Assembly (NCBI GenBank): GCA_916610825.1
Contig: OU744452.1
Location: 14,860,110-14,924,109, forward strand
Length of the DNA: 64,000 nucleotides
Reading direction: 5' to 3'
Source: Haliclystus octoradiatus
Lineage: Eukaryota; Cnidaria; Staurozoa; Stauromedusae; Haliclystidae
In this document: piece after piece, positions 1,987-61,999 of the stretch
Position numbering within the stretch: position 1 is the stretch's first letter
Layout: each line of letters starts with the position of its first letter
Made by a program: the position numbers and the translations under genes
Notes under the pieces: generated by a model
Told to the model about the DNA's origin: nothing
Databases searched by the model: none
What the model saw: only the letters and a program-made list of their open reading frames with translations

Positions 1987-2296
1987 TTATTGAAAATGAG
2001 GGCAACCTTCAGGATGGTGAAATAATGGATCACAAATTGCTTGGAATCTTTTCAAATCAGCAGCCATAGCAGCACCTTCTTTTGTTGCAAGTAAATCCTG
2101 AACGATTTTATTCAATTTGGATTTTGTAATTGATGAAAGGGATTCTTTGGTGGAATGAGGGCATTGCTTTGGTCCATATCCAGGAAGGGAGGTGAATTTA
2201 GCCATTAAAGCTTTTGACTCATCTGTGACAAATGGACAGGCACCATTCTTGAATGCTGGGCATTGCATTTTGGCTTTTCTCAAAGTTGAAGATTTG
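1987..2296 (-). CDS. CP-domain exon A (domain 3 of gene 1, terminal)
   Basis: Acceptor ATTTTATAG, then C and an open frame reading KSSTLRKAKM before QCPAFKNGACPF. This leader aligns with the AKAKA leader of exon B, but the only ATG (2268) is at the Met just before QCP. That argues that exon A is normally reached by splicing rather than by its own start. It then has LPGYGPKQCPHS, LLATKEGAAM, AICDPL and GCPHFQ. The stop TAA is followed by TTAAAA and is not a donor, so this is the last coding exon. Confidence 0.78.
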
Positions 2297-4963
2297 CTAT
2301 AAAATATACAAAGTGCATTTGAAAATCATATTCTCATAATGTTTTTTACCTCAGCAGTTTGATAAGTTCTCGTTTTGGGAGATTTTTTAAATAGCCTTAT
2401 TACGGTGGCCCACAACTGTCACGGCACATTAAAAATAAAACGCTGCAACATGTTGAAATCGTAAAAAAACATTCTTGATATTAAAAATCAAGCTGTCACA
2501 CATTGTTTAAAAAATATAAAATAGACACGCCACATCTTTAACAACGTAAAATCGTGCAACTCACCTTTGATAATTAGAATAAATGCGTTAAACATCATTC
2601 GAAAAACGAAAATCACCCTTCGATGTGAAAGATTGATGTCACGATTTTTTATTTAGTTAAGTGTGTGCGATCTGTTTTTTTCTTAACAAAAGTTTGCCGT
2701 GGCATTTGGCAAAAATCCACGGCAAACTATTATAATCATTATCATCATCATTTAATCAGGAATTCATTTTCACAGGACTCGTGAATATTTGATTACAGCA
2801 AATAAGTCGCGACCGTGATTATCAATGTATTATTATTTTATATTATTTTACGTACAGATAATGAAATATATATTGTTTCATGTTAAAAAGTACCTCATTT
2901 TCAAGCTTTTAACAAATCAATGTTTATCTTAGTATGTTATACTCAGACATGTATCGTAGTGAATTGAAAAGACTAGATGAAAAAAATATAAACCTAAAGT
3001 GTGATTTCACTACTTTTCAGATTTTGAAAAAGATTTTGTTAAAGATGTTGCGTGTCTATTTTGTATTTTTTTAAACAATGCGTGACAGCTTGATTTATTT
3101 TATATTATTTTACGTACAGATAATGAAATATATATTGTTTCATGTTAAAAAGTACCTCATTTTCAAGCTTTTAACAAATCAATGTTTATCTTAGTATGTT
3201 ATACTCAGACATGTATCGTAGTGAATTGAAAAGACTAGATGAAAAAAATATAAACCTAAAGTGTGATTTCACTACTTTTCAGATTTTGAAAAAGATTTTG
3301 TTAAAGATGTTGCGTGTCTATTTTGTATTTTTTTAAACAATGCGTGACAGCTTGATTTTTAATATCAAGAATGTTTTTTTACGTTTTCAACATGTTGCAG
3401 CGTTTTATTTTTTAATGTGCCGTGACAGTTGTGGGCCACCGTCACCTTATAACACGCGGACGATTTAGGTAAGAAGATTGCAAGGCCACAATTGTTTTCG
3501 AGTTGGAATTAACAAAGAGAGATTATTCATCAAAAGGAAATATGGATGTGGTATCAATTAAATCGTAATCAAATTACGTATCTATATTTATTCGTATTAT
3601 TTTCAAATCTTCTTTCTGGAAATCTGCTACCGGAACTCCCCAGATGGAGCTAGCCAGAAGCAATTCGTTTCTAAATTGTATATAATCCACGATATTACAT
3701 AATTTCTTCTCCGCTTGATATCTCTACACAAAATGTACACATTTCTATAATTGTACAAATAATTTTATAGTAGTTTTTTACAGCTACGATAGTATAAAAC
3801 ATGATCAAAGCTAAACACAAACAAGAAACAACTTCAAGAAAAGTTCGTTTTCTCTCTCAAAGCAAAGCAAGACAAAGGTTATGATGTACTATAGTTTCTA
3901 TTCTTCGACGTCACGACCATCCCCCCAAACTAACGCTAACCGATGGCTGAGGGTTCATATGCCAATAATGACAGCCCCAGTTATAAATCATACGATGATA
4001 TCAGGATAACCATGACCATTCCGGATAATATGAATAGAATAATATGGGAGTGCAAATTTGCCTTTCAAAATTTTGTTTTTCCAAACTTGATACCTCAAAT
4101 ATTTTCAGGCAAAAATGTATACCCTAGAAATTTTTTATCGACGCATGTTTACACCTAAATGTTTACATCATAATTGTTTGTAATGCACATTATAAACAAC
4201 AGTTGAATATATTTACTTTTTGAGGTATAGGCAACCTTTGTGATTATCAATAATTGGATGAACAAGAGACTGGAATTTCTTCAAATCATTAGCCATAGCA
4301 GCACCTTCTTTTGTAGCCAACTCTTCGGCAATGATGGCATCAAACTTCTCTTTGTACAATGTTCCCAGTGAATCAGCAGAAGAATGTGGGCATTTTTTTG
4401 GTCCATATCCAGGCAATGTTTGGAATTTAGCAAGAAGAGCCTTGACTTCATTTGTTGCAAAGGGACAACAACCATTTTTAAATGCTGGGCATTCGGCTTT
4501 AGCTTTTGCTGCAGCACCAGCCATGCTATCAGAAGCAAAAACAATGTTTTGATTAACATGGAACTTGATTTTTCTTTGCCCACATGTACTTACAGGAAAC
4601 CAGGATCAAATTATATATCAAAAAATGTCCCCATAACATATATTGCCTCACTTACTTGCTAAAATGGGGACATCCCTTGTGATTATCCAACAATGGACGA
4701 CAGATTGCGTGAAATTTTTTAATGTCATCACTCATCGCTGCACCTTCTTTAGTTCCAAGAACTTCTGCAATAATGGCATCAAATTTCTCTCCAGTCAATG
4801 TTCCCAAGTAAGCTTCTGAGCTGTATGGACATTGTTTTGGTCCAAATCCAGGCAATTTGGTGAATTTTGCCATAAGAGCTTTGGATTCATTAGTTGCAAA
4901 TGGACAAACGCCATTCTTGAATACTGGGCAATGTGCCCTTGCTGCAGCGATAGTTGCGGCCAT
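1987..4963 (-). CDS. Three-domain Cys-Pro-repeat protein, gene 1 (3 coding exons)
   Basis: Proposed structure on the - strand: exon C 4963-4656, exon B 4525-4217, exon A 2296-1987, with introns of 130 bp and 1,920 bp. Exon C ends AGC AA before GTAAGT and exon B begins with C before ATG, giving AAC in frame. Exon B ends AAA AA before GTAAAT and exon A begins with C, again AAC in frame. The product is about 308 residues: three tandem CP domains of ~102 residues each. The start is the ATG at 4963, four bases after a CAG acceptor, so a 5' UTR exon lies upstream. No signal peptide or membrane segment is seen, so it is probably intracellular. Alternatives are three separate single-domain genes, or intron-retained forms of one gene; transcripts are needed to decide. 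I do not recognise the family. The larger intron contains a 1-kb inverted-repeat transposon. Confidence 0.62.
2402..3442. mobile_element. ~1.04-kb DNA-transposon-like element with ~142-bp terminal inverted repeats
   Basis: Left arm 2402-2542 starts ACGGTGGCCCACAACTGTCA; right arm 3300-3442 is its near-perfect reverse complement, ending GGGCCACCGT. Within it, a 262-bp segment is tandemly duplicated (about 2834-3095 and 3096-3357), so the inner part of the right arm occurs twice. No transposase frame is visible: a non-autonomous element. It sits in the B-A intron of gene 1. Confidence 0.85.
2834..3357. repeat. 262-bp direct tandem duplication
   Basis: The run CGTACAGATAATGAAATATA starts at 2851 and again at 3113, and the identity extends about 262 bp with almost no mismatches. 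Internal to the inverted-repeat element; it indicates a recent duplication. Confidence 0.9.
4213..4525 (-). CDS. CP-domain exon B (domain 2 of gene 1)
   Basis: Follows acceptor TTCTGATAG at 4526-4534. Begins C|ATG GCT; leader AGAAAKAKA, then ECPAFKNGCCPF, LPGYGPKKCPHS, ELATKEGAAM, and GCLYLKK at the end. This copy has lost the fourth CP (Cys-Leu instead of Cys-Pro) and gained a tandem cysteine (GCCPF). Its TAA (4215-4213) overlaps a weaker donor, AA|GTAAAT. It could be a stand-alone 103-residue protein or the middle domain of gene 1. Confidence 0.75.
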
Positions 4964-4967
4964 TTTT
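4652..4967 (-). CDS. CP-domain exon C (domain 1 of gene 1)
   Basis: Acceptor TTAATTACAG, then AAAA and ATG at 4963. The domain starts with an Ala-rich leader (MAATIAAARA) followed by CPVFKNGVCPF, a K-LPGFGPKQCPYS segment, LGTKEGAAM, and GCPHFS. If the following intron is retained, translation ends SK-stop, with TAA at 4654-4652; the same bases are a near-perfect donor, AA|GTAAGT. An extra cysteine sits in AICRPL. It is 103 residues if unspliced at the 3' end. Confidence 0.8.
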
Positions 4968-7900
4968 CTGTAATTAAAAATATCTCAAGCTAAAATCCAA
5001 AGCAGTATAGTATATTGTCGAATCAAAATATCTTGATTAATTTGAATATGTGTGCAAAAAGAACCTGCTTATAGCAAAGATATTAATCAATAAGCATTTT
5101 GGTACTTCTTTTCGGATAAGACTTCCGTTTATTGATTCCCAAATGAGTTTATCAATCAAGCCAATCCCATTTCTGATTCGAAATCTATAGGCCCCAGTTA
5201 CACAATATTTTCAAGGAGGTGATTTACATCATTTGGTCTGATAAGTAACGGAGTCAATTTAACATAATGATTATCACTTCAGCACTTCCTGAATGGGATT
5301 GATGTCTATACCATTATGCTTTTCACTCATGCAGCATTTGAAAGATAGTATACGTAAAAGAAGGTTTTTAAGTTGAAGAGTGAAACAAGAACGGCAGCGT
5401 TTGGATGGGCTATTCCGAAATTTTTCTCGTTTTTTGTAGCTTTTTTATTTACCTCATACCATTTTAGTGAATTATAGAATGCAACTTTTAATATTACAAT
5501 CATTCTAGAGACATGCGCTGCTTTCAAGAAACCTTGGTTTGATCGATTAACTGAGGAAATTATCTTATTTTTATTTAATTACTTTGAACATATCATTATT
5601 TTTACGATTAAACACTGTTATGAAAAAATCTATAACAGTGGCGGAAAAGTAGCATGCATTTAAAATACAGACATTATTGTCTCGAGAGACAAAAGTATAA
5701 TCTTCAAATAGATTAAATAGATTCCACTTTACAACACAATGTTACGTATTCACTACAGCAATACTTCAATTGTTTCTATTAAACACCATGATTGAACGCA
5801 TGGGTAGGTTTTCAGACAAATAATAAGCCGAGGAATAAGCTGTGCCCGGTAAGACATCCGTTTTGTCCATTGAACAAAAATCACCATTGCAAAATTACAT
5901 CTAACATAAAACAACGTCCTTCGCATGAAAAGTAAATACCTCCCGTCAACTTTGTTTTCTTTTTAAAATGTTCTGCATTGAAAGTTTTTAACTTGGGCGG
6001 TTCCATCGTGTCTGACTGACATATCGGAAGATATTTTCGAATAGGGCATCAACATCCACGCAAAGTTTGATCAATTATTATTTCTTACAAATAAAGAGTG
6101 GCAAAAACATTTCCACAAAGTAAAAATATTCACAATAACTCAAAATATAAATAAACTACAGCAAGTTTAAGGTCCGTGTCTGACTGACACGGACGCTCGC
6201 CATTTTGCCAATTGGAGATGAACATTTGTAGATTTCTGCGAAGTGTTGGCATAAAGAAGAATAAAATCACTCTCATCATGTTCTTGATTGATGTAATTTT
6301 TGTTAGAAAATCATGAACAGAGAAACGCAAAATTTCATGTTTTAGTTTGTTGTTGTTCTCATAAATTCACGAGCGGCCAACTCGACGCTCTTTCTAAAAC
6401 ATTAATTTTCTCCAAATCGAAGTCTATATTCTCAATCAAACATATATATAATGATGGTAAAAGTATCTATTTTGGAGAAAACAATTGATTTTTGTCTAAA
6501 TTCCTTGCTTTATTTTTGACGCTTGTAAAATTTTTGGTTTCACTTCTGATGGAATCGCCCACTTGTTCTTAGAAGTCCATCTTTTTGGACCTTAGTGTTT
6601 CTATAATAAACATGTTTTCTAATACCCGAACTCACAGTGTCTCAAGCATATGTGTAAACATTATACGGCGTAACCCGATTAACTGCAACCTGGCTTCGAA
6701 ACCCTATAATAAACTATTTCTGTTCAATATACTGTTTTACCAAGTTTCCGATTTACAGAGAGTCTGCAAGCAGGCTAGCCAACTCCTTGTTATAGTTCTT
6801 CGATAAGTGCAAATTCATAAGTCATATATACATACAATAGAAATTGTCGGCAATTTTGATTTGCGCAGCAAGTTAAATTTCAGAATATTGCCAACAAAAC
6901 ATTGAACTGCTTGTATCACAACAATACTATGCAAAATAGTAAATCTATTTATATTTATTCAGTCATTGCGGCGAGGTCGAATGAAAATTATATAATCGTA
7001 ACTAAATCTATCCAGACAAGTACACCATTTTATAGGCTGTCAGTGTCACAAAAAGTGCGGGATTTTGAGACCTGTTTTCCGGAAGGCATGTTCATTATTT
7101 TTATCCAGAAATCATATTGATTTTAACTAGTTTTTATTTGAATTTCATGCCATTGAGCTCAAAATAAGTCACAAATCGGAACAGTTTCCTGTTTAGGTAT
7201 AGTGGGCAATAAATATACTAATGAATTAGTTGAACACTGATATAGTGCGCTGAGCTTTTTTCGATTTCGAAGCATACGTAACTTTATTCTGAAATATGAT
7301 ATATATGTGTGTCTTTATTGGAATATTAATAAATAAAAACAAAAAGTTAAACTAATTTCCAAAAGAGTACACACATAGAAGGCATTTATTCAACGCTCTT
7401 ATACTATGTGGTTAAGTTATAAATTTAAATGACAGTTATATTAATTATTATCTATAAAACATGAAAGCAAACATTTAAATTTGCTGAGAGAATTTGCACA
7501 AACGACATCATCCGGTAGTAACATCATCTGTGTATATGGACGATTCAAGTTTACTTACAAATCTACAATCTGACCCATGGGATATATTGAAATAATTCAT
7601 TACTATAGCTAACACGAGAGCGTATATATATTAATTCAAAAACATCTGAGATATTAATTAAGTTAAATAATGCAATATTGTAAATTTTTCCGCACTACAT
7701 AATTTGAGTGGCTTGAGTTTGGTTTTGTTTTGTTCCGATAGAGGCAAAATATATATCGATAATAATCAGAAGTTGAGAAAGTCAGAAGCAGTAAAATATC
7801 GAATTATAAGTAGTTAATAATTTACCTTTCAAATATGATTTGTTGAACAATTTCTTATTGTGTCAACAAAATAACTTTTCCAGTCTTTCCAAGGTCAACT

Positions 7901-10664
7901 GAAATATAAATTATAACAGTGTAAATTATAGAAAATATATCAATATGTCGTAAATAATGTGACTTGGATATTATCTACATTGAAGGGTCAAACGACTTAC
8001 CCTCTTCTCTCTGTTGAATGATAGGAGAATCTGATTTTAGAATTTGAAACCAATCTTTTTAACAAACCACAAAAGCAATGACATGTCGCGAATTTAATCA
8101 TGTGACATCGAAAAGTATCAATTGCCTTCAATCTGATTGGTTAGATTCCAGACTCATTCAGATTACTTTCCCGTGGTAAATTTTTACAGTTGACTGACTT
8201 TGGTATAACATTTCATTTGGATTTTTGAAGGCTTTGAATGTTTAATAAACAGTACATATTATTGCCTTTTGGGCCACAACGGATTTGGATAGAACTTTTA
8301 TTTTTATCACTGTTGCGGTTTTGCATATCGCGATTCTTTCCCCTTCAAAATTGGCCTTGACCTTGAACATGGAATTTTGGAGATTCTCGTGTCCCACTTT
8401 TCGAAACAAAAAAAGGGACGATAGTACGATACTACGTTTTAATTGCTACACGCAAAACGAGTATCGGATTCGTTTTACTTTTTTTTCCTTAAATATTTAA
8501 CTCTTCATCCAGATCCTGCTAGCTACTATATTTATAGTATAACTTTATTCCAACAAGAGCTATATGCCTTCAAAGTTGTAAAAGGCAACACTTTAAAAGC
8601 ATCGTCATAATTGTTGTAAAAACACATCATATATAACATTTGACAGGGTTAACGTTGTCGGTTCTGTCAGTTCCGAGCAGCTGTCAACAGCCAATAAAAA
8701 GCCTGGTTCCCATATAGCCAAACCGCCCGCGTCATTGCCTGGGTCACAGCCGTAGACATTTATCTAGTTTTTTCTATTGTTTCGACCGGATGTCTCATAA
8801 GCTGATAATACCATGTGATAATATCATGTGATACTCTTTGACCTTAATGTGATGTAACTTGTTTGACATGAATGAGAATGGTTAGAAAGTAGTACGTTAC
8901 GTAAATAAAAAATTCATGAAAACTTGTAGCCGAAATTAGAAAATACGTTTCCACCTCGCTATAATGAATACAATGAATATAATGGTAAATAATATAATAT
9001 AGAGTTACATGCATGTATGTGTTAACTTTGTTATAATTATTGAAGGCTACTATATCCGTTTTTATTATTACGAAGCTTTTTCACTTAAGTGGTTATTCTA
9101 CATGAATAGTATACACACTAGACGCTATCACATGGATGTTTATATAACATGGAACATATTATTGTTAATCAGCTCATAAATACACACTGAATGAGCCAAC
9201 ATAAAATCAAGGTCACACCTAAAATCATATTTGCTTGAGCATTTGTGTATTTCTCTGTCTCCTCTACACCATGTACACTGACCCGAAGTTTTACAAATCT
9301 GTCGGGTGGGTGTAAAATACCGACCCGCTGACTCGCCGACCACACAGACCAGATTGATTTAATCTAGAATTTCCGGGTTGACATGACGAATACTTCACGG
9401 CGTTGTACAGAATATTTTGTAAGAGCTTTCTGCTGAAGATTTATAAATTTTCTTTTATAGGTATGTTCTCGGTCGAATTAATTCTTCCAATTTGTTCAGC
9501 TCAACAATTCAACTTGGAAAGCATCGACACAATTATGACACGCACATCAATCCACGTTGTTATTTTCTTTTTTTTTTATTATTTATTTTATTTTTTTTTT
9601 TTTTCATTATTTTATTGTATTTTTATTTTTATTCCACAATTTTTTGTATTTTAATTCTGTTTCTATCGTTTTCTGTTGAAATATGCTATGAGAACGATGG
9701 GCCACCATGTCTATCATCTTGTTGTATTGTCTTTCGATCAAAATTTGACTGTTTTCCGATAACATGTCGCGCTCAGCCTGTGCGCAGACGTTTTGATGGA
9801 GGCATAATGGCGTTTTAGAAAGGGTTAATAATTTGTGAATTTAAATGCAAATAAAGTAATGTTCTGCCACTTCAATTTTTCTCGATTTTTAATATGTTGT
9901 TAAGCGTTAAATTCTGTTCTACAATCTGTAAAAACAGCTTGTGTTGCAATTTGTCCTGGGTTCCATGTTTTTCCGATCTATATTGACTGGACTATACAGT
10001 GATAACAGATAATAATTTCAATCAAAAAGTAAGAACAATAAAACAATAGACCCGTGTAACTCGCCAACCCGAGTAACTCGTCCTCCTTGTAAACAGGGCC
10101 TAAGTTACTTATAAAGAAACAATAGATTATTCCATATAATTCCTCATTCTCCACTAGTACAATAACTAAAGATAGACTGTGATAATCTATATTATTATTA
10201 TTGATAATGTTTTCTTTGTGATGATAAATGCCCAGTATGTAGACACACAGTCATGTTTCCTGTTTTGTATCTATAAAGACAGGAAAACATTGAACAAGTG
10301 AAGCAGTCAGTGAAAAAGGAGCGATAAGCCAGTTCTCATTCGATAGTCTATGTTAAAGGTAGCTTTTTTTCAATTGATATTGTGACCAATTTAAACGCAT
10401 AATGTAAATGGCATGACTCTTTTGTGTTTACTCTATTTTTAGTTAAACCAGTTATTGTTGATACCTTAATAGTTTTTAACCAATCACAATTTACCTGACT
10501 ACGCCTGTTTAAATACGTGTCCAATATCTTGACTACCTCTATATTCCTCTTTACGCTTTCAAGACAACACAACGATTACAGTTTTCAAGGTATGCATGTA
10601 TAGATTTGTCTTACTTTTTAATTAATTTACTACTTTGTCACAGTTTTCAGATAGTCATGGCATG

Positions 10665-10695
10665 GTCCGTTTAGGGTCCGTTTAGGGTCCGTTTA
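10665..10695. repeat. Three tandem 11-bp units (GGTCCGTTTAG)
   Basis: Three consecutive copies of an 11-bp unit can be read directly. Function unknown; probably simple repeat expansion. Confidence 0.7.
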
Positions 10696-11773
10696 TATAT
10701 TTATATAGTATCTAATAAATAAATAAGTGCAGGATTTGAGAAACATCTCAGGTTGTTCTCTTATTTTATTGTTTGATGATTTTCGACCCTTCATTATGAA
10801 TCAAAATGATATTTGATAGATGAAATCATTCATTAAAGGGAATTAATTAGTTAAATATAAATTAACTGAACTGAAATGAACCTTCTTAAGCAAATCAAAC
10901 AGGTTCATTGCATCGTTAAACAGTGAGACAGAAAATGATCGAAAAATCGTAATTTTGACTGCGTTTTTGGAGGAAAAATGATAACGAAAAGCAAAAGTAG
11001 AAGAACAAGAAAAGAAGAAATAGAAAATATTTTTCTATCTAACAAAGCAGTGTCCCAATTACACACTTTAAGATGCATAAAGATTTGCTCGCTTAAGTTT
11101 GTAAGAGTTTTTTTACAGCGTTTGCAATAATAATTTTTTACAACTCACGATAACACGCCTTCATTGTGTATGCTTGTAATTGGTCAGTCAATTTTGGCGC
11201 AAAAACTAATGCAATCAATGATTAAGGACCAATACTTACATACCATAATCTCCTGGACATTAATTCATATATAACCTTGTTGAAGGCAGCCTTTCGTTTT
11301 GAAATATTTAGATAGATAGATCATATATTTCAAATTTGCTCAACTAATTTTCATTAAAGCCAAATCATTAATTATTATGTATACTTCTTCATTTCATGTA
11401 ATTTAATTTCTAAAAATTCTTGAATTTGCATGAAGCATGTTTCTATTAAATAGAGGACCGCGTCCTGAAAATCATCTAAAATCAATGAGGCTTACTCTTT
11501 AAATGTCAAAGATATATATTTCAATGGATTTTTTTTTTAGATTCTTGTTAAAATCTTCTCCGCTTGACGCAATCAGAAATTGTTCAAGAATTAAAGGTAT
11601 AGTACAGCCATATTTAAACATTATATATGTATTATTGAAAATATTGATTCCTTCAAATGAAATTGTTGGCTGGATTAATGTATGTTACGTAATATATATT
11701 ATGCGTAATGCGCATGACGTTTTCTCTTCACATAACCAGAGGGCAGAACTGTTGTGCTATAGCTATATAATGT

Positions 11774-11955
11774 ATCTGGGGGCTTTACGTATGTCGTGCG
11801 CGTTGCAAATCGAAACAAGCTGTCTGTAGTTAGAAAACAAAGTTTTATCACACAAGGTCCAGTACTGGACGGAAACTGACTAATTGCTAGTAGCTATATA
11901 ATGACATGGGGGCTTTATGTATGGAGTGCACGTTGCAAATTGAAACAAGCTGTCC
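11774..11955. repeat. Diverged direct repeat of ~50 bp, spacing ~133 bp
   Basis: GGGGGCTTTACGTATG... at 11776 and GGGGGCTTTATGTATG... at 11909 align over about 48 bp, including a shared GAAACAAGCTGTC. Confidence 0.7.
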
Positions 11956-12908
11956 CTATGGTTAGAAATTCGCACAGATAGAAAACAGCTATCAATTTAA
12001 CTTTAAATGAAATCCTTACATAAGCATTCCAGGAGTACCACAATAACATATCATGCATGCATGGTTTCATGGTTGATCCTTCTTTTGAATGTGCGAAAGC
12101 AGGGATATTAAATCAGAAATAAACTGTTGGGAAAAAAAAACAAAGAATTGAAATGTTTTATTTCAATAATAGAACGCAAGCTGTCGACTGAGAAATAAAT
12201 ATTATTCTCTCTGATCTGTGCAGATATAAATCAGCATACTATTTTATGTGCATGATTCAAAGACAACTGTATCGTTTATATATAGCAGAAAGTTCTCAAA
12301 TGCTCTCTCTTTTCATCTATCCGAACCCTGCTACTAGAATTCTATGGCGTTTTTTGAGTCAGAAGTATCAAAATGGAGCATCGTTTGTCCATGACAACGG
12401 GCATAACAACGAACCAACTGAGACTAAAAATAGTCAAACAAATCTTTGAAATTGTTTATAAAGAAATGTAATGAAGATACTAATAGGAAGTCTTGCCTTG
12501 TACCGGCTAGTAATCTTTACAAAGTTTGGATATTTGAATAAATATGTATCTTCACATAGCAACGTTACATTTTTGCACGATATAGCTCGCGTACTATAGA
12601 GCAACAATTTGTGAAGCCAAATTGATTTCTGGAGATTGATTACAGTAGTGATTTTGGATGCCGTATATCACAAGACATTTTTAAAATATAACTGTACATA
12701 TACAGTTATATACAAATGTACTTGTGCTTATGGGTTGACGATATTGTTCGATAGTTCTACATGGTTTCGGTTTTTAAAATCATCGAACGTCACCCCAAAC
12801 TCTGATTGGTTTCTGTCGATGTTTTTGTAGTGGAATTCCTCAATTGCTTTCATATAGAAGTCTTCGAAAATGATTTGCTGCAAGTATATTGTTTGTATTC
12901 ACTTTTAG

Positions 12909-13209
12909 ATAAAGTAAAACCATGCCTGAATGTCCACAGTACGTCAAGGCTTGCCCCTTCAAAAATGCCCACACAGAGGCTCTCTCTGGTAAACTACGTC
13001 ATCTTCCAGGATGGGGCCAAGGCAACTGCCCGAATGCCCCATCAGGTGTTCAAAAAGGAATGACCTCAGGGCAATTCAATGGCATCATCGAAATGCTTCT
13101 TGCTACAAAGGAAGGTGAAGCCTCTGCAGACAATCTTCATAAGTATGCAAATGCAGCCAATGCTGTTATGAGCAAAGCTAAATCAATGGGATGTCCACAT
13201 TTCCAGTAA
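12909..13209 (+). CDS. CP-domain exon D (domain 1 of gene 2)
   Basis: Acceptor CACTTTTAG ends at 12908-12909, followed by a 12-13-base leader and ATG at 12922. Motifs: CPQYVKACPF (one residue shorter between the first two cysteines than the other copies), LPGWGQGNCPNAPSGV, MLLATKEGEA, GCPHFQ. The TAA at 13207 overlaps the donor CA|GTAAGT. Read without splicing it is a 95-residue protein. Confidence 0.82.
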
Positions 13210-16200
13210 GTTTCTACCTTCAATTGAATCTACAGGGCCGCTGAGAGAGGGGTAAGCAGGGTGTAATTTCCCAAGGCCCGAATGGTTCTCCTGGCTCATT
13301 TTGATTGTTAATGTGAGCCTCTGCCGCTGTTGCCGAGGACTGCTCACGACTATATTTTAAAAAATCTGTGATATTCTGATAATATTCACACCCCTAGGTT
13401 ATACGCAGTACTTTCGAGAGCCGTACCAACTGTTTTTGATACGCCGTACCAAGTCGACCAAACACAAAAAATTATAAAGTGGGATTATATGCCGATCCAA
13501 AAATGGTGTACCAGTTGATTTTTGTTTGAACTTTACCGCTTCCTGTGAGAAGAATTGTGACATTCTGTTCTGAGAATCCGTAATAGGAAGACTTTTTAAT
13601 TCGAAATCTGCAAAGTTTTTACTGCAAATTATTATTTGTCGACATACGCGTATTTATAAAACCACTAAAATATATTTGGTTTACAAACACGAGGTTCAAG
13701 ATTATATTATCTTCATATTTAATATTTTTTTCATGTTTAAAATGCTCAAAAACAATATATCATTGATAGATAGATTATTTGCTTTCGATAAAATTATGAT
13801 AAAATATAAAAATGGCAAAGAATACTCAAATGTGATCACAACAGTAGTTTATTCATTTATTTGAATTAAAACGTAATACTACACCACCACAGATTATAAC
13901 GACCAGACACGGCACTGAACGTTCGAAAATTGTGATTGGTCAAATAACGGCCATTATGTTTGTTGCCTATTTTTGACGCATTTCATCGTTGTCCATTACG
14001 ATTTTAGGGATTTATCGACAAAATGATACTTGAAATAATTCACTTTTGAAGCTGAATTCAGCCTTTCTCAAACTACTCAATGCAAGTGGATGGATGATAC
14101 GCTATATGTAAAATTTAAAATCATACTTTTGATATTAACAAATTTATTTTAAATGCCATAAATTCAAAAACCTAAAAAGTCTACGGTTGAAATGAAGAAA
14201 GGACGACAATATTTATAGTTTATCACATAAATTTCATTGCAAACTGTAAAATAATATGCACTGACGCTCGGTGATATGGAATAACACAATCACAGTCAAA
14301 GAATAGGCTATTTGGAGTGGATTTTTATGGAAATTACTGCTTACGTTTTTGCCATTATTTTCGATCGAATACGATCACACGCATGCCAAAAATCACGGCT
14401 CTTCAAACTGGGAAAAATCGTGTAAAGAGCCACATATATTCGATAAATTAATGAAATCATATTACAAAATATTATTTGCAATGTAATTGTAAATTTTATT
14501 TTCCAAAAACTGCTTGTATTCATAATTTATAGCCAGTTTTTCTCTTCAGTAAAATCAATGAGTTTGTTCAACTTTCATAAGTCAATAAAATATTGTCTTC
14601 CAGACACAATATACCATTATCAAACGATCATCTCAAAATAGAAGATATACTTTCCTGTTATTTTCCTTTAGCATGAAAATTGGGCGCAAAAGAAACGCGT
14701 AATTTGCCTATAAAATAAGTGCAAATTTATCGTGTTTTTCCATTGCGATTTTAGCGCGTAACTGCAGCCAGGTTATCGAGGGGCAACAAACATAATGGCC
14801 GCCGAGAACAATTGAATTCGAAAATACAATGAATTCGACTTTCAGTGCCGTATCTGGTCGTTATAATCTGTGTACACCACCGCTTTTGTTGTGATACGAT
14901 TACTAACCACGGTTACTTAGCAACAGGCAGGAAACAATAAGAAATTCATACAGAATCCCCCTGGAAATGACGAAAACATTCCAAATTCGAAATCGTACGC
15001 CTCACGTAAGTACGGCGTATTTTTCAACTGCTTTTTCAGGCGTACCGGTACGGCTGTTTTCTGTTTGGTGCGCCTGGATCAGCCGTACCTTCGATTTTGG
15101 GTCGACCCAAAAATTAATCGCCGTAATTTGCCAGATTATACGCCGTACTTTCAGGCGTGCCGATCCATTTTTGATGGATCGCCTCTCGAAAATACGACGT
15201 ATAACCTAGGGGTAATAATGTCACGGTTTCGCTTTACTGAAATCTCCTGTATACAATATAGTAATGACATGTATGCTCAAATATGATTTAATTAGTGGAA
15301 AATAATACAGACAACTTTTAATTAATGTAAAATAAACGAAAACAAAAGATTTGACAGACATAATAGCAACATACAGATATACTGTATTAGATGTGTTAAT
15401 TCAAACCTGACAATCATTTGTATTACGGTATTAATGAATGATTTGGTATAATGTATTCAAAAACCTTCGACGCTATTTAGTTTTCTTTTAGTAAGAGTAT
15501 ACGTACGGCAGCTTTTATGCAGATTGGACGCAGTCATTTTAAGACAGTACATGTAGTAAGCTGTTGAAGTTTCCAATATTAATTAACTGCTTCAAGTGAC
15601 TTTGTTGTCTTTCGTTTCCTTATTTTCCGAAATCAGCTTTATCACGATTGAAATCCACATGAAAAATAATTCAAAACTCATATGGAAATTTACGAAATAA
15701 ATCCATAGTTGGAAATTTACGAAATCTAGTTGATAATTTTTGAAATTGATTTGCACATCATAAAACCTACTTGGAAAACGTGTAGTAATTGAAAAACCGA
15801 AACGTGGAAATTATCAAATTTTGAATAATTAGTTGTCTGCTCCTGTACAATTTATAAACACGGGGTTTATTTAGCCAATGATCAACTCTTCTGGTTCTTG
15901 TTTCTTAAATATTAATAACGCTCGATCAAAAAAATCAGCTTCTTCCTCGTCGTCGAGTTATGTCGGATTCGCATTCCGGCACCTTCATCAACGCATTGGT
16001 GAACACAGTGGATTGAGCTCAGTGGTCGGAAAACATCTGAAATACCACAATAAATCCTTATAAAAAGCTTCTTTGGTGTTGATTTAATAAGAAAAGTCAA
16101 CGAAAAAATGTTAATTTTTATTCATATTAACAAACAACGTTTCGATTGCATCACGCAATCATTTTCAAATTAAGGGTAAAATTGATTATAGGACTATTTA

Positions 16201-18944
16201 TAAGGGCTAATTTGATACAATATACAAAGGATAATAATGCAGTATACAGAGGATAATAATATAGTAATACAAAATAAAAGAATAAATGAAATTGACAAGA
16301 AATATCTATATAAACACAAGGGACTTTAAAGAATCCTTTTGTGTATTAAGCGACGTCTTAATTTTTGCAATGAATACCATCTCTTTTATTAAGCAGTCAA
16401 ATTTTGTTTTACCACGAGACAAAACTCATATAATCTATAAAATAAACACAATAAATCCATCAGTGAACCAGAACACCCGTTTTCAATAGTGAGAAACTGA
16501 CTCAATGTACTTGATAATTCTGCATTGACATTAGCTATTTTAGATCTATACACACACAAACCAAATAATATCGAGGGATGAGATGTAAATATACGTCATT
16601 TATAGATAAATAAAGAGGTGAAGCATGTCCACCCACACTTGCACGAGTAAGGTGCTCAATGATAAACACCAGTCGTAAATAAAATGAGTCGTAAAAGAGT
16701 CATACGAAATCTTCGCTACTCAAAGTCTCACACCACAGGCTATTATAGTTATTATAGCCTGGGGATATACCATCTAAAAGTTGATAAGCGTAAGATTGGA
16801 ATGAAATGCTTGTCAGAGACGGCCTTCTCCAATATCTTCTACACATTAAACAAGTCCTCTAAATTTATTCACAGGTAGAAACTTATTATTTATTTAGAAA
16901 TCAATCTGGATGCCCAAAGTATGCAAATGGGGCCTGTCCCTTCAAAAATTCTGATGCAGAAGCCTTGTCTGGTAACTTAAGTAATCTGCCTGGATGGGGT
17001 CACGGTACATGCCCCAATGCCCCAGCAGGTGTTCACAAGAATATGTCGATGGCTGAATTCAATGGCATCATTGAAGTTTTGGAAGCTGGTGGAAATAACA
17101 GTGATCATCTTGACAAATATGCAGCCATTGGTAATGCAGTAATGGTGAAGGCTAAGGCACAAGGATGTCCTCATTTCCAGTAAGTAACTACTTTTATCAA
17201 GACCATTTTCAACCATGTTTCACTGTAATCAGTTTCGATTATCTTAGTGTATAGGATTTAAAAACACATATGATAGCTACCCCTGCGAAAAACAGTTCAG
17301 GGGTTCATGAACAGTTCATGAACGTCAAATGACACCAGATTTTCATGAAATGTTCATGGACTCCTGAACTATTTTTTGCAGGGGAATTTATCAATTTCTC
17401 TCATGTGTTTGATGGCTTTTTCAATGTGACTATACCAATATACTTTCGAAAATGTTTGCAGGGTTGTTTTGAGAGATGTTCCATAGGGTAGGGTGGATAG
17501 TGTCGGATTCACTTGCCTAAGCTTGACTTCAATATTATTTGTAGATTATTTTAGTTCAATATTATAATTAACATTTTTGTCTTTACGTCTGTTCTCTGGA
17601 CACGTTCCTTCTCATGATTAACGCCTGCATAGATCGGACTCGTCTAGCACGGTAAGCAGGCACTATTTTCTCAAATGTTAATCTTGAACATTTTTTAATA
17701 ATAAAGTTTATAGATTTAAGATAATATAGCAGTTGCTATTGTGCAAAATACTGATAGAAAAATCGCAAGATTTTTGAGTAAATCGTCTTATATTGACAGC
17801 TCTGAAATAAGCAGAATCGATGAGCTATAAACTATGGTATTTATTAAAGATCAGGAAAAACGTGTTGTTGACTATCTCATGTGGGGATTCCACTTAGTCG
17901 GATAGGCATTGTACCGCATAAGTATGGCGCCATCAGACTTAAAATTATGCCAGATTGACTGTGGAATTTACTATCACCATTCTGACAAATACACAGGATC
18001 ATCTCGCGTTCGATAATTCGCCAAGAGCTGATTGGCTTCTTCGTGGCAAAAACTGTGGTATACGAACATTATTACGCTCGGATGGAAGTAATACGGAGAG
18101 AGTAATAAATACTATTTTTCAAGACGGAAGCACAGATCCCATTTAGCACAGGGAGCTGTGTGTGGCCTTGGTGTAGTGGCTAGAGCGTTGGACCACGGCC
18201 CGCAAGGTCTCGGGTTTGGATTCTGGCCGGAGCACTATAGGTTGGCGTCAGGAAGGGCATCCGGCTATTAAACACACACACAAGCTTCAAAATACTAACA
18301 AACTAACCAACCCACCCGTTGAAAAAAGCTGCAATTACCTGGTTTGTGGATAAATGATAAATACAATTGGAAATTTGATCCAAAACTTTATATATCACTT
18401 TTAGGGTTGTGAATAGTTTAATTATGTCATTCCAAAGACACAATAGCAAGCAAAAGAACAAAAGGGAAAATATTATTGTTAATTTAACCCTGGAAAATGA
18501 CACATATAACCATATATTTATACATAGCACCGTTCTCCTCCGGGCAATGATATAGATATTATAAAGTTATAAGTTGATTCGGATGAAACATCCTGTAAAT
18601 AGTGCAATATATCAACATGTTTCTAATTTGTGTGTTTTGTATTGCTTAGAAATCAATCTGGATGCCCAAAATATGCAAATGGAGCATGTCCTTTCAAGAA
18701 TCCTGAGAATGAAGAATTATCTGGTAAATTGAAAAATCTACCCGGATGGGGAAAAGGCAAATGCCCAAATGCCCCAGCAGGCGTTCACAAAGGGATGTCA
18801 TGTGATGAATTCAATGCTATCATTGAGATGTTGCTTGCAACAAAAGAGGGGGCTGCAGCTTCTGGTGATCTGAAGAAATATGCAGCCAACACACATGCTG
18901 TCTTGGCCAAAGCCAAATCTCAAGGATGCCCACATTTCCAGTGA
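12922..18944 (+). CDS. Three-domain Cys-Pro-repeat protein, gene 2 (3 coding exons)
   Basis: Proposed structure: exon D 12922-13205, exon E 16898-17179, exon F 18650-18944, with introns of 3,692 and 1,470 bp. D and E both end TTC CA before GTAAGT; E and F both begin A AAT CAA TCT GGA TGC after an AG acceptor. Each join therefore makes CAA (Gln) in frame and links GCPHFQ to NQSGCP. The product is about 286 residues, three tandem domains. E and F have no start codon of their own in frame after the acceptor, which is the strongest sign that they are internal exons. D starts at the ATG at 12922 because an in-frame TAA lies just upstream inside the same exon. The D and E stop codons (CAG TAA) exist only if the introns are retained. 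No signal peptide or membrane helix is seen. Function unknown; the family is not recognised. Confidence 0.72.
13391..15212. mobile_element. ~1.8-kb long inverted-repeat (fold-back) element
   Basis: Ends are CCCCTAGGTTATACG at 13391 and its reverse complement ending at 15212. The similarity continues inward in mirror order: the CGCCGTACC/GGTCGACC stretches, then ATTATAACGACCAGA (13893) against TCTGGTCGTTATAAT (14852), and both arms carry AACAAACATAATGGCC or its complement. No transposase frame seen. It occupies half of the D-E intron. Confidence 0.75.
15878..16200 (+). mobile_element. Penelope-like retroelement 3' fragment with GIY-YIG-type endonuclease remnant
   Basis: A 61-residue open stretch (15878-16063) contains YVGFAFRHLHQRIGEH followed by a KHLKYHN-like His pair. 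The pattern YVG-x-RHL-x-RI-x-EH is what I know from the C-terminal endonuclease of Penelope-like elements. About 70 bp downstream, at 16137-16172, AACGTTTCGATTGCATCACG and its continuation resemble the terminal CGTTTCG...TTCA segment of such elements, which in reverse complement carries a degenerate hammerhead-ribozyme-like core. The upstream reverse transcriptase part is missing: a dead fragment. Confidence 0.6.
16898..17183 (+). CDS. CP-domain exon E (domain 2 of gene 2)
   Basis: Acceptor TTTATTTAG ends at 16897. The in-frame upstream sequence has a stop and there is no early ATG, so it needs an upstream exon. Motifs: NQSGCPKYANGACPF, LPGWGHGTCPNAPAGVH, GCPHFQ. The usual LLATKEGAA segment is replaced by VLEAGGNNSDH, so this copy has lost the most conserved non-cysteine motif. 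The TAA at 17181 overlaps donor CA|GTAAGT. Confidence 0.8.
17280..17384. mobile_element. TTCATGAA-rich palindromic MITE (clearest copy)
   Basis: Starts CCCCTGCGAAAAACAGTTCA and ends TGAACTATTTTTTGCAGGGG, with internal repeats of GTTCATGAAC. A complete ~105-bp copy in the E-F intron; the same family recurs through the dynein introns. Confidence 0.8.
18164..18284 (+). mobile_element. tRNA-derived SINE-like element
   Basis: GGTGTAGTGGCTAGAGCG resembles a tRNA A box and GGTCTCGGGTTTGGATTC a B box, spaced as in tRNA genes. A tail GGAAGGGCATCCGGC and a CA-rich end follow. The acceptor-stem pairing expected of a functional tRNA is missing, so this is a SINE. It lies in the E-F intron. Confidence 0.65.
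18650..18944 (+). CDS. CP-domain exon F (domain 3 of gene 2, terminal)
   Basis: Acceptor TATTGCTTAG, then the same A AAT CAA TCT GGA TGC start as exon E. Motifs: CPKYANGACPF, LPGWGKGKCPNAPAGVH, MLLATKEGAAA, GCPHFQ. An extra cysteine is in MSCDEF. It ends CAG TGA TTT, not a donor, so this is the true stop. An ATG at 18630 would extend the frame across the acceptor and is probably not used. Confidence 0.82.
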
Positions 18945-29042: not shown

Positions 29043-32000
29043 CTGTGAAATAAAAAAAAATAAAAATGTTATTGAAATACAGTACTGAGATCGCTTTGTG
29101 TATTTTCGTTATTGAAAGCATAGAAAAGCATAGGTTATATATGTTCTGATCAGGAAATACAGCTTTGCAAGACTATATCACTTGAATCATGTGTGATGTT
29201 TCCGGTTTTAGCACGAACTCTTGTTCATGTAGCTTTGAAGGATTTTCGTAGTTAATTCTAACATACCTTTAAGTTGGAAAATAAATAAACACGTTGGAGC
29301 TGCTTTAGAATGAAGGATAGCGACAAGAGACTACACGTAGTACACGTAGTGAACATTGGCTAAAACGTTTCGATATCACTAATAGCATCGTCTATGATCC
29401 TATGAATGTATCGAAACGTTTTTATCAACAACTACGTGCAGTTTGTCATCGCTATTCTTCATTCAAAATTGTTTACAGGAAAATTTTTAATAAAATTTGA
29501 GTTGACATTGAAAATGTTCTTGAATCTAGTGTGAAATGTTCTTGCTTAAGATGATTACCGAAAGTGAATTTTGTACAGGATTGTCTTTAAGTGATGTTTT
29601 TAGGCTACAAATAACACATTTACCTTGGCGGAGTCACGTAGAATCGAGTTAGAGAAATTCGTTGTTGGCATGGTGCTGAGCCAAAGTCTAAAATCAGGAT
29701 CAACCATGGTCGATGGATCTCTTATCCTAATAGAGCAAAATAAAATAATTATCTATATTTGATATATTGCCAATGAGAGGAAAATGTTAACTCCTAAATT
29801 AAGACAATATATAATTAGGACTCATTATAGCAATGTGATCATTTTGAATTGGGAATACATTCTTCGAAATTCAAATTCAAAATTCAAACTACATAATTCA
29901 AATTATGACAAAAGCATCATCAAATGTTTGAATAAATGATTTCAAATAAGCGAGTTAATTGATTTTGTGAAGACCCTCATGAAAATCTGAATGAAAAATG
30001 TGGTCTCATGATCAAATAATAATAATTTATTTCCACTTGTATTCTACTACATGTACGTAAATACAGCAGTTGCCAAAATAAGCACATTTTACAGGATGAT
30101 GAGATCTGATTATTTCCTGTAGATTTGCTATAAAATAAGCAAGAAGATAATCCTATCGAAGGGGGTAAGCAAGAAGATAATCCTATCGAAGGGGGTAAGC
30201 AAGAAGATAATCCTATCGAAGGGGGTAAGCAAGAAGATAATCCTATCGAAGGGGGTAAGCAAGAAGATAATCCTATCGAAGGGGGTAAGCAAGAAGATAA
30301 TCCTATCGAAGAGGGTAAGCAAGAAGATAATCCTATCGAAGGAGGTAAGCAAGAAGATAATCCTATCGAAGGGGGTAAGCAAGAAGATAATCCTATCGAA
30401 GGAGGTAAGCAAGAAGATAATCCTATCGAAGGGGGTAAGCAAGAAGATAATCCTATCGAAGGGGGTAAGCAAGAAGATAATCCTATCGAAGGGGGTAAGC
30501 AAGAAGATAATCCTATCGAAGGGGGTAAGCAAGAAGATAATCCTATCGAAGGGGGTAAGCAAGAAGATAATCCTATCGAAGGGGGTAAGCAAGAAGATAA
30601 TCCTATCGAAGGGGGTAAGCAAGAAGATAATCCTATCGAAGGGGGTAAGCAAGAAGATAATCCTATCGAAGGGGGTAAGCAAGAATACATGCTCTATAAG
30701 TGTCTTTTAGTACGAATGCTGTCACATGAAATGCGCATCAATATCATTAATTTTTGTTCTTGAAATGAGCATCAGCTTTCTTGTTTTACGCAATTACGAA
30801 TTTAGTTAATCTATCTTTCCTAAATCAATTTACGCACACATCAATAATTGTGATCCTCTTTTTAGCTTTGCTAACTGAGATCTTCAGATAGGCTGCGAAT
30901 GTGATGTTCGCTTACGTTTCAACCAGACCCTGTAGTTTTGGCATGAATGATAATGCTAAGTGACAATTTTGTAATAAAACCCAACGATTTCTCAACCCGT
31001 AAGCTTTCTTAACAACATCAATCGCTTTTTGTCCTTGTCCTCTACCAAGTGATACAACCTCTACTCCAGTTGTCGAGCCTCTCTTTTCTTGCGCAAATCG
31101 TAAAAACACTGCTGTTGAATCAACTCCTTTGATAAAAATAGAACAGATGAATGGTAATAAAAGGTTAACACACACTTGCGGTGTTTGTATTCATATTTAC
31201 TACATGAGGAATGTTGGAAGACACCAGTGAAGTATTAAAAGCTCGAGCCGGAGGTGCATAAATTCTGCAGATGTATATACAAAAAAGTTCCCTAAAGTGC
31301 ATTCTACAGGTATGATCAGCGAACATTTATGGAGCACAGTGACATCCAATTCCATGGAGTTGTACACAGAACACAGATGCTTGGCTAGATCCCCTGTATG
31401 CCATTCACATCAGTGCATACAAATGATCCGGGGAATGATCTCAGGATATCATTATGCATAAGCAAGTAACAATTATTTTCACACACATACCTGAAGCCAC
31501 AGTTATAACTATTGGCATTCGACAATTTGAAGCATCGTAAACACCACTCAAACTATTATCCTGAATCAACATAAATCTCTTTCCTAAGATCTTGGATGTA
31601 TAGCTTGTCATTGATTCAAGGAATTTATCAGGTTGGAAACATTTCACTAACATTAATCGTTGAAAATCAGATAAAGATGCTGGAGACCAATCATTATCTA
31701 AAATAAACAATACAATGATGAAAAATAAACAAACAATTTAAAACAATAATATACGTTATTATGATGAATAAATGTTAGAATATTTGTACTATATTAAAAA
31801 TAATAATATGCAAACCATTTGAGAGAATGCTCGATATATAGTGAAGTAGACATATGTATAATGAAACAAAGATTACTCAAGTTTTACCGTCACTCTGATT
31901 GGTTGTTAATACACAATGGAAGATAAATCAAGGTCTAATTATATCACATATTGGCGTGGCAACAGCTTAAAAATTTCCAGGTGTTGCCATGGCAATATTT

Positions 32001-59000: not shown

Positions 59001-60378
59001 AAAAAATACCTTTCCACAATGGTTCTGCAGCTAATGTCAAGACAGTGGTATCATATTCATTTTATTGCCGAGCCATACGACCAAAATAGCAACTATATTT
59101 GATAAAATTATAAATAACAGAAGTAAGGATGGGTTAATATTAATTATAGCGCTATATAGAATATCATTTTTTCTGAAAGGGCACATACTGTTACCGCTCC
59201 CCTCCCCCTTCCTCAAAGGCAGGAGGGGCAGTTGCAGGATTATGAAGAGGGGAAAGCAGCCACAACAACTGTGAAAAACAGTTCATGAGTTAATGAACGT
59301 AAAATTGCCCAATTGTCCATGAACTGTTCATGAATGTTCATGAAGTATTCATGAAAATGTGGGCAATTTCATTTCATGAACTGTTCATTAATCGACAAGG
59401 AAGTATGAACACTATAAACTGTTCGGGAAATTCATGATTTCTTTTCACAGGAATTGATTTGTGGGATCATCATCTGAGTTTGAAAGGAGGTGTGATAATT
59501 TTGCTATGATGCTGTTTTTTAGGCTTACAAAATATCCAACCTGAGGCTTGCATTGACAAAACAATGATCAATGCAGTGGACCTATTGTAGCTTCTAGCGT
59601 GGTAATAAGTTAAGATACTGTCTCTGCAAGAATCTCTACAGATACAGTTTGAGATGTATCGGAAATTTCTTGCTGACGATTTTCCTACATGATAACATTG
59701 ATCAAGTAGTTTAATTATGCTGCTCAAGCAGTTTTGAGTGTTTCGAAGGATATTTTTTATGAGAGATAAATAACAAGATTAAAAGTACTTACCGCTACCA
59801 ATGATGCCTGACCAGGGAAGGATTTGAACCAGTCAACATAATTATCATCTTTGAAATTCAACAAAGCATTTTCTATTGATCTGTATTCAAATAGTAAGCA
59901 TTAATATAGGCTAGAAACAAAAACAAATTTTGACAATGAAACATATTGGTAATTTAATTATCTTCCATGCAAATTGTTACCTTTTGACTGATTCGTTTAG
60001 TATATTTTCAAGGCTTCCAAGCCATTGTTCCATTTGACCTCGAATCAATAACGGTCTAATAAAACATTAAGTAAGAACAAATTATTACATGGATTATTAT
60101 AAATCAGACATAAAAGTACAAATGTTAAAGATAGACTGAAAATAGATTGAAACTTAAAGGGTAATTATAACAACTAAAATTTTTGCTGAATTTCAATAAG
60201 AAAAATGCACATTTAGAGTTTATAAAAGGGGGTAAAAGACATAAATCCGCCGAAACCAAAAACAATCTCATGTCTGATTATTGGATAACAGAATACTGAC
60301 AAAATGAATGGGTTCAAATTTTACAAATGAGAGTTACTGTGCAGAATATTTGGCTTGGATGATAGATTTTCTATGAAC

Positions 60379-60439
<61 letters not shown>

Positions 60440-61999
60440 GATTTTGCAAAATCTTTAACAAGTCAATCAACACATCCAGTTTTTCTTGCTGATAAGCCAT
60501 TGAATTGTTTAATGTTTGCCGACGATATAGTCTTATTTTCTCAAACCAAAGAGGGTCTCCAAAAAGGCATGGAGAAAGCATATCTTTACGCCGAGCAATG
60601 GAAGCTCAAAATTAATTATGAAAAGTCAAAATGCATGATCTTCTCAAAAAATTATGTTGATGAGCAACATTTCTTTTCCATTAATAATACCCCCATCGAA
60701 ATGGTCGAAAATTACAAATATCTAGGTTTTTCGTTTCATTGCTCCTCAAAACAAAACAATGTTTTGGTATTAAGCAACTTTGCACAAAAGCCGAAAAAGC
60801 ATGGGCAATAACACAGCGCTCTATGGGGCGGTCGTCAACCAGCTATGTCGCAATTCACAAAACAATGTTTACTACCATGATAAAACCCATACTTCTCTAT
60901 GCTAGTGATGTTTGGGGTGATTCTGTTACTCACATTGAAAATAACCAAATAGAAACTGTACAGCGAGATATTATGCGGAAAATATTAAATGTTAGAAAGA
61001 ATTCCAGTAAGATAGCTGTTAGTGCGGAATTGGGGATCATCCCTCTACAGATTGACGTTAAAATTAATATGATCAAATTCCTTGTTAGAATGATTAACTC
61101 CAAAAAAAGTAGTTTACTGTACAAGGCATTTGGTGAACAAATCGTCAACAGTTCATCAACTTCATGGCTGGGTAAAGTTATAGGAATCAATTTACAGCTT
61201 TTGATCTCTAAAGAAACTAATCAAAAATCTGATCAAATAAAACTAATCAACTCTATAAAAGATCAATTAAATAACGAATACAAAATCAACTTTGAGCAAA
61301 CTAATCTAAACTCTAACACTCCAGGCCAATCGAACCAATTGAAATTCTACAAAACAATCAAACATAAATTTGAATTTGAAAATTATTTGCTACTTCCACA
61401 CAAAAAGTCTAGGATAGCAATAACTCAGATCAGAATCAGTGCTCATAAGCTCGGAGTACAGACCGGACGATATTCTAACATTCCCTACGAGGACCGGCTA
61501 TGTCCCCATTGCGATAGTGACAGTATCGACGATGAGATACATCTACTCTTTAACTGTAATATAAATAGTAACTTGAGGGTAGCGTTTTTTAATAAAATAG
61601 AAAAGTTGCATAACAACTTTCAGGTATTCTCGGATACAGAGAAATTGGAACTGCTCTTTTCCCAAACAGAGTTACAAACAAAGAAACTGTTGGGAAGATT
61701 TCTTTACGAATCTTTGCAGAAACGCTATAATAATTTGCAATAGTGAATAATAGAATGACCCATGTTTTGATAATTTTATAACTATATAGTGAATCAATAT
61801 TATCTTAATATGTTGTTATTTAGAAGCAACAGGGATAAATAGGTTCTTATAACAACTATGCTAAATAAAAAATAAATAAAAATATATATATATATATACA
61901 AATATCGAATAACAACATAATAATATTAAATAATACTTACCACACACCTGTATCTATGTAAACTGGTATATTGGTATTAAATCAAAACAAACAAACAAA

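Follow-up and report, generated by a model that had tools for sequence, protein, structure and literature searches.

A Cys-Pro repeat domain of Haliclystus octoradiatus, linked to heme oxygenase, as a candidate heme-handling module

Motifs made of a cysteine followed by proline (Cys-Pro, CP) tend to be presented as short sites that stand alone, and, to our knowledge, the movement of labile heme through the cytosol is poorly understood, with few dedicated carriers known. Among the closest described systems, human heme oxygenase-2 (HO-2) bears CP sites on a heme oxygenase (HO) core, and the presequence of another heme-pathway enzyme, ALAS, has CP motifs at its N-terminus. Metallothioneins are cytosolic buffers of metals. 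Here we analyse 64,000 nucleotides of the genome of the stalked jellyfish Haliclystus octoradiatus, of the cnidarian class Staurozoa (hereafter the window: positions 14860110-14924109 of contig C8, which is a 21.35 Mb chromosome in a 33-contig assembly of 262 Mb, or 261,861,806 bases), where two genes, A and B, each encode three copies of a domain of ~95 residues with four CP sites. The genome holds eight such stand-alone domains in four genes, plus one copy fused to heme oxygenase. This unnamed domain family is real and its link to heme oxygenase is sound. The heme chemistry of Cys-Pro was already known; what the searched libraries lack is the modular domain and its fusion to HO.

The fused copy was found on contig C5, in an open frame of 199 residues whose final 48 match the heme oxygenase family (PF01126) at 2.9e-12. 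Splicing this frame to two further exons yields an HO of 455 residues, whose residues 147-351 cover positions 2-204 of the 204 in PF01126 (245 bits) and whose core aligns with heme oxygenase 2 (PDB 2q32) at 6.6e-65. The core keeps the catalytic segments of the enzyme, IHRQAE at 159, with the proximal His, and GDLSGGQ at 274. Of the four places that PF01126 matched in the genome, three are exons of this gene; the fourth, on contig C4, has 13.8 bits and lies below the cut-off of 23, which leaves the C5 gene as the sole HO gene recovered by this search. It is a full member of the family, whereas genes A and B of the window hold only the extra domain, without an HO core. Eight CP sites occur in the enzyme: six fall in the N-terminal part, at 17, 24, 42, 49, 101 and 110, and form three pairs of the type CP-x5-7-CP[FY], while the last two, at 381 and 410, lie ahead of the hydrophobic tail. 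The latter, CPFI and CPIT, stand between core and tail and recall the two sites that HO-2 has before its membrane span. The human enzyme differs in having, in the passages available, only two C-terminal dipeptides, to which the jellyfish protein adds an N-terminal four-site domain of ~95 residues, a unit that occurs on its own and in tandem as well.

To judge from its sequence, the N-terminus of this HO is a divergent, full-length homologue of the stand-alone domain. Residues 9-104 align end to end with a profile built from the eight stand-alone domains, with the four CP sites in register, and the profile scores 34.4 bits on the N-terminal 145 residues and 29.3 on the whole protein. Among 1000 shuffles of each of three kinds, the best score was 7.8 for plain shuffles, 23.9 when CP was kept as a unit and 19.2 when the CP positions were fixed (873, 990 and 997 per thousand, respectively, scored high enough to be listed), and none of the 3000 reached 34.4. 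Used as a query, the HO N-terminus finds the domain at C8:6163570 at 1.3e-7 together with four other A- and C-type domains (C1 and C2 being the single domains elsewhere on contig C8), and the C2 domain finds HO in return, again at 1.3e-7. All nine domains, the HO copy included, keep Cys1 to Cys4, and Pro comes directly after Cys at 35 of the 36 aligned core positions.

The two genes of the window had been proposed in an initial annotation as head-to-head and three-domain, an arrangement borne out by their open frames and phase-2 GT-AG splicing. All six exons are open where they had been placed and encode one domain each; they splice without frame error into proteins of 308 (gene A) and 286 (gene B) residues, with four of four introns of GT-AG type and in phase 2, and 7,958 bases separate the divergent start codons. 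Since all the introns are in phase 2, the middle exons of both genes are symmetrical, which is the usual setting of exon duplication. The second intron of gene A also holds a perfect tandem duplication (window 2833-3358; 262-base unit, 2.0 copies, 100% matches), either a very recent event or a duplicate of the assembly. An alignment of the six domains has 16 columns without variation, and these include the Cys of each of the four motifs. The motif pattern described from the sequence stands in most of its parts: CP-x6-CPF occurs in five domains (x5 in B1), the gap from Cys2 to Cys3 is 24 residues in all six, and that from Cys3 to Cys4 is 52 in three and 54 in two, B2 falling with 51 just outside the 52-54 that had been given. 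The final G-C-P-H-F is present in five of the six and reads GCLYL in A2. LPG[YFW]G occurs in 6/6, and TKEGA, claimed as a second conserved block, in four, being TKEGE in B1 and lost in B2. Cys is followed by Pro in 11 of 15 cases in protein A and 12 of 13 in protein B, more than ten times what shuffling predicts (means of 1.0 and 0.9, maximum of 6, in 20,000 shuffles per protein). Equally, no signal peptide had been seen, and the 19-residue Kyte-Doolittle mean peaks at 0.22-0.78 in the eight stand-alone domains, which, as far as hydropathy shows, leaves them without a hydrophobic stretch.

That the family was unrecognised agrees with the libraries: no match above cut-off appeared in Pfam for the window's six domains or the two single domains, nor in NCBIfam for the two of the six tried and for HO exon 1, and PDB sequences gave none for A1 to an E-value of 5 and none for a six-domain profile to 10. 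In particular, neither Preseq_ALAS (PF09029) nor heme oxygenase (PF01126) was listed by Pfam for the six window domains or their exons. The ALAS presequence is alike in placing N-terminal CP motifs on a heme-pathway enzyme, and one exon for it occurs in the genome (C10:18484126-18484257, E=2.1e-7 with PF09029), with ordinary CPF and CPV motifs. We considered it as another carrier of the domain and rejected it, as it scores only 1.9 bits against the domain profile; the HO N-terminus reaches in turn 11 bits with PF09029 (E=0.57), below the cut-off of 21. As in metallothioneins, the window proteins contain Cys, are repeated and have no evident signal peptide; they differ in their ~5% of Cys, mostly as Cys-Pro, with long conserved stretches in between and no Pfam match above cut-off. 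A bacterial or viral origin was also rejected, with no relative in scans of genome contigs and viral contigs, which require near-identical short peptides and so reach close relatives only, or in a tblastn search of plasmids, where four Streptomyces records (E=0.05) fell within an AarF/UbiB gene and were taken as chance. Among the open-access articles listed as matches, judged by their titles and part of their abstracts, none deals with such a domain or with a cnidarian HO carrying an N-terminal CP domain.

Elsewhere in the genome, searches with A1 and C2 recovered the six window copies, two more on contig C8, fragments on contig C1 and the single place on contig C5, and a search with B3 found all eight stand-alone domains and neither the C5 (HO) nor the contig C1 places. 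The pair at C8:6.16 Mb was examined by eye as one spliced gene, but the acceptor immediately upstream of the second ATG does not keep the frame set by the phase-2 donor of the first copy, and we read the pair as two single-domain genes. On contig C1 (15408833-15410010), two short fragments ~1 kb apart are 69% and 71% identical to the gene at C8:6163573, the second being weak (E=0.217) and interrupted by a stop, and they look like a decayed copy. The idea of an expanding family, put forward for the two window loci, thereby gains support at the level of the genome, with eight stand-alone domains in four genes, a fused copy and decayed fragments on another chromosome. In a tree of the nine domains, B1-B3 are grouped with a support of 100, and the order of A1-A3, C1, C2 and the HO copy is not resolved (supports of 14-56). 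In four genes (A, HO and both single-domain genes) an acceptor-like AG lies 1-4 bases upstream of the start codon; in gene B the distance is 13 bases. An intron in the 5' untranslated region or spliced-leader addition, which occurs in some medusozoans, would explain such sites, and their closeness to the start codons hints that HO exon 1 and the exons of the stand-alone domains may derive from one ancestral exon.

Because the domain is fused to HO, we think that it is, on balance, a cytosolic heme-handling module, whose fused copy would catch or meter heme and whose stand-alone proteins would buffer or deliver it. The heme role suggested earlier was a guess from the CP dipeptide, and it now finds independent support, since the one HO gene recovered from the genome carries a homologous domain. 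In this scheme, ferric heme could find a thiolate ligand at each of the four CP sites of a domain, much as it does at single heme-regulatory motifs (HRMs); the N-terminal copy of HO would capture labile heme, either to feed the catalytic pocket or to restrict its supply, and the one- and three-domain proteins would act as multi-site buffers or chaperones, which hold heme away from damage and hand it to heme oxygenase or other users. We infer that the domain proteins bind and transfer heme, are cytosolic and are expressed. Of the two marks of HRM proteins considered here, an excess of CP is found in proteins A (11) and B (12), and a place in the heme pathway comes through the HO fusion, for the stand-alone genes by association only. 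Passages of a published work report that CP peptides bind ferric heme and that a nearby His moves its coordination from five- to six-coordinate (PMC10377097), a shift that, by analogy, would suit the C-P-H-F motif.

Several observations weigh against this heme-handling role and the homology behind it. A gene fusion indicates a common pathway, not the binding of a ligand, and, in the parts of the study available, human HO-2 with one or both CP motifs mutated still lowers labile heme in cells unchanged (PMC8808069), so that strong buffering is not a necessary property of CP sites. The 1.9 bits of the ALAS presequence also tell us that a heme enzyme may carry CP sites without being a relative. 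Moreover, CP-unit shuffles climbed to 23.9 bits, which means that CP content itself earns part of the profile score and that E-values overstate the relationship, although the rank among controls does not. The HO copy shares only ~32% identity with its closest relatives, has no LPGxG block and carries CPIF in place of CPHF; as a query it finds none of the three domains of gene B, and B3 misses HO. From these observations, together with the long branch of the HO copy in a weakly supported tree and the many heme-binding proteins said to carry CP motifs in passages of PMC10377097, it could be argued that the HO N-terminus is no homologue at all, both proteins having gained their CP sites separately since both meet heme. 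Such an analogy is very improbable in our opinion, given that no shuffle with fixed CP positions (0/1000) attained the observed score, that all four sites align end to end, and that HO and the C2 domain find each other in both directions at 1.3e-7. Even less credible is that the genes are decaying or untranscribed duplicates without function, as the partial loss of the fourth motif in A2, the lost TKEG block of B2 and the decayed fragments on contig C1 might suggest. The frames of genes A and B are open, with consistent phase-2 splice sites. Of the 28 pairs that the eight stand-alone domains form, 17 are unsaturated and give a ratio of nonsynonymous to synonymous substitution rates (dN/dS) of 0.11-0.46, the other 11 being saturated at silent sites. 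These ratios are rough because dS exceeds 1 in every pair, and the last codon used for A1, A2, B1 and B2 extends one base into the donor; still, they are signs of purifying selection on the stand-alone copies.

The conserved cysteines may have other ligands or none. A domain for zinc or another metal, in which the four Cys and the His of CPHF would hold a structural or buffered metal and the link to HO would pass through released iron, is a rather unlikely possibility, in favour of which stand the conservation of Cys1-Cys4 in 9/9 domains and faint, sub-threshold resemblances to zinc fingers (PF18384, E=3.2; PF18044, E=0.85 and 0.066), none of which comes near the cut-off. The best score of any zinc finger model (CCCH and related) was 13.4 bits against a cut-off of 24.6, and the 6-7, 24 and 51-54 residues between Cys in the eight stand-alone domains contain no CxxC or zinc-knuckle spacing. 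Known zinc knuckles are spaced differently and zinc sites do not require Pro after Cys, so the Pro at 35/36 core positions speaks against this explanation, as does the fusion to HO. An improbable but compatible role, for it would not exclude the binding of heme, is that of a thiol/disulfide redox module, where paired CP cysteines would form disulfides, report redox state and gate HO or its partners. Pairs of the form CP-x5/6-CPF in 8/8 stand-alone domains and the three CP-x5-7-CP pairs of the HO N-terminus would fit with it, and the HRMs of HO-2 are called a thiol/disulfide switch in the titles of cited references. Among thioredoxin-like models, however, no match rose above noise, a glutaredoxin model attaining E=0.094 and 12.9 bits against a cut-off of 87.25.

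Coordinates of the genes that carry the Cys-Pro domain (positions without a contig name are those of the window)
Feature	Location	Strand	Basis and remarks
Gene A coding exon 1: ATG start, CP domain A1	4656..4963	-	open frame, splice; acceptor-like AG four bases 5' of ATG
Gene A intron 1	4526..4655	-	130 bases, GT-AG, phase 2
Gene A coding exon 2: CP domain A2, fourth motif GCLYL not GCPHF	4217..4525	-	open frame, splice
Gene A intron 2	2297..4216	-	1920 bases, GT-AG, phase 2
Gene A coding exon 3: CP domain A3 and stop	1987..2296	-	open frame, splice
Stretch between the divergent start codons of genes A and B	4964..12921	.	coordinates from gene models
Gene B coding exon 1: ATG start, CP domain B1	12922..13205	+	open frame, splice
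Gene B intron 1	13206..16897	+	3692 bases, GT-AG, phase 2
Gene B coding exon 2: CP domain B2, without TKEG block	16898..17179	+	open frame, splice
Gene B intron 2	17180..18649	+	1470 bases, GT-AG, phase 2
Gene B coding exon 3: CP domain B3 and stop	18650..18944	+	open frame, splice
Single-domain gene	C8:6163573-6163884		103-residue open frame, ATG to stop, just after acceptor-like AG
Single-domain gene	C8:6167181-6167492		103-residue open frame, ATG to stop, just after acceptor-like AG
HO gene	C5:890047-895005		HO-2-like core, N-terminal CP domain, two C-terminal CP motifs, hydrophobic tail

The rest of the window contains exons of a dynein heavy chain on the minus strand (35872-57921), with matches to AAA_6, AAA_7, AAA_8, AAA_9 and AAA lid in the four frames tested, and a minisatellite (30136-30685; 30-base unit, 18.3 copies, 98% matches) that is open in several frames. 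On the plus strand, open frames at 60377-61743 resemble by eye the end of a non-LTR reverse transcriptase, one of 351 residues having no Pfam match. No structured RNA was found in the window at Rfam gathering scores. The mitochondrial contig C33 (18,316 bases) fits code 4, with TGA as Trp and AGA/AGG at the Arg positions expected in COX1. Only two tRNAs were detected by ARAGORN on this contig, together with a DNA polymerase B frame (PF03175, 2.6e-15), a medusozoan pattern. A tunicate as the source was considered and rejected in view of code 4 and the two tRNAs.

Returning to the heme-handling domain, a bolder and more tentative proposal, which we regard as possible, is that the family represents a previously undescribed, modular, four-site CP heme-binding domain, which would serve as the built-in heme loader of HO and would have spread by exon duplication into one- and three-domain cytosolic carriers of labile heme toward degradation. 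If this is true, the jellyfish would offer a compact module of four CP sites, both free and fused to HO, in which the capture of heme and its hand-over are measurable, and the family would be a lead toward similar heme carriers in other cnidarians.

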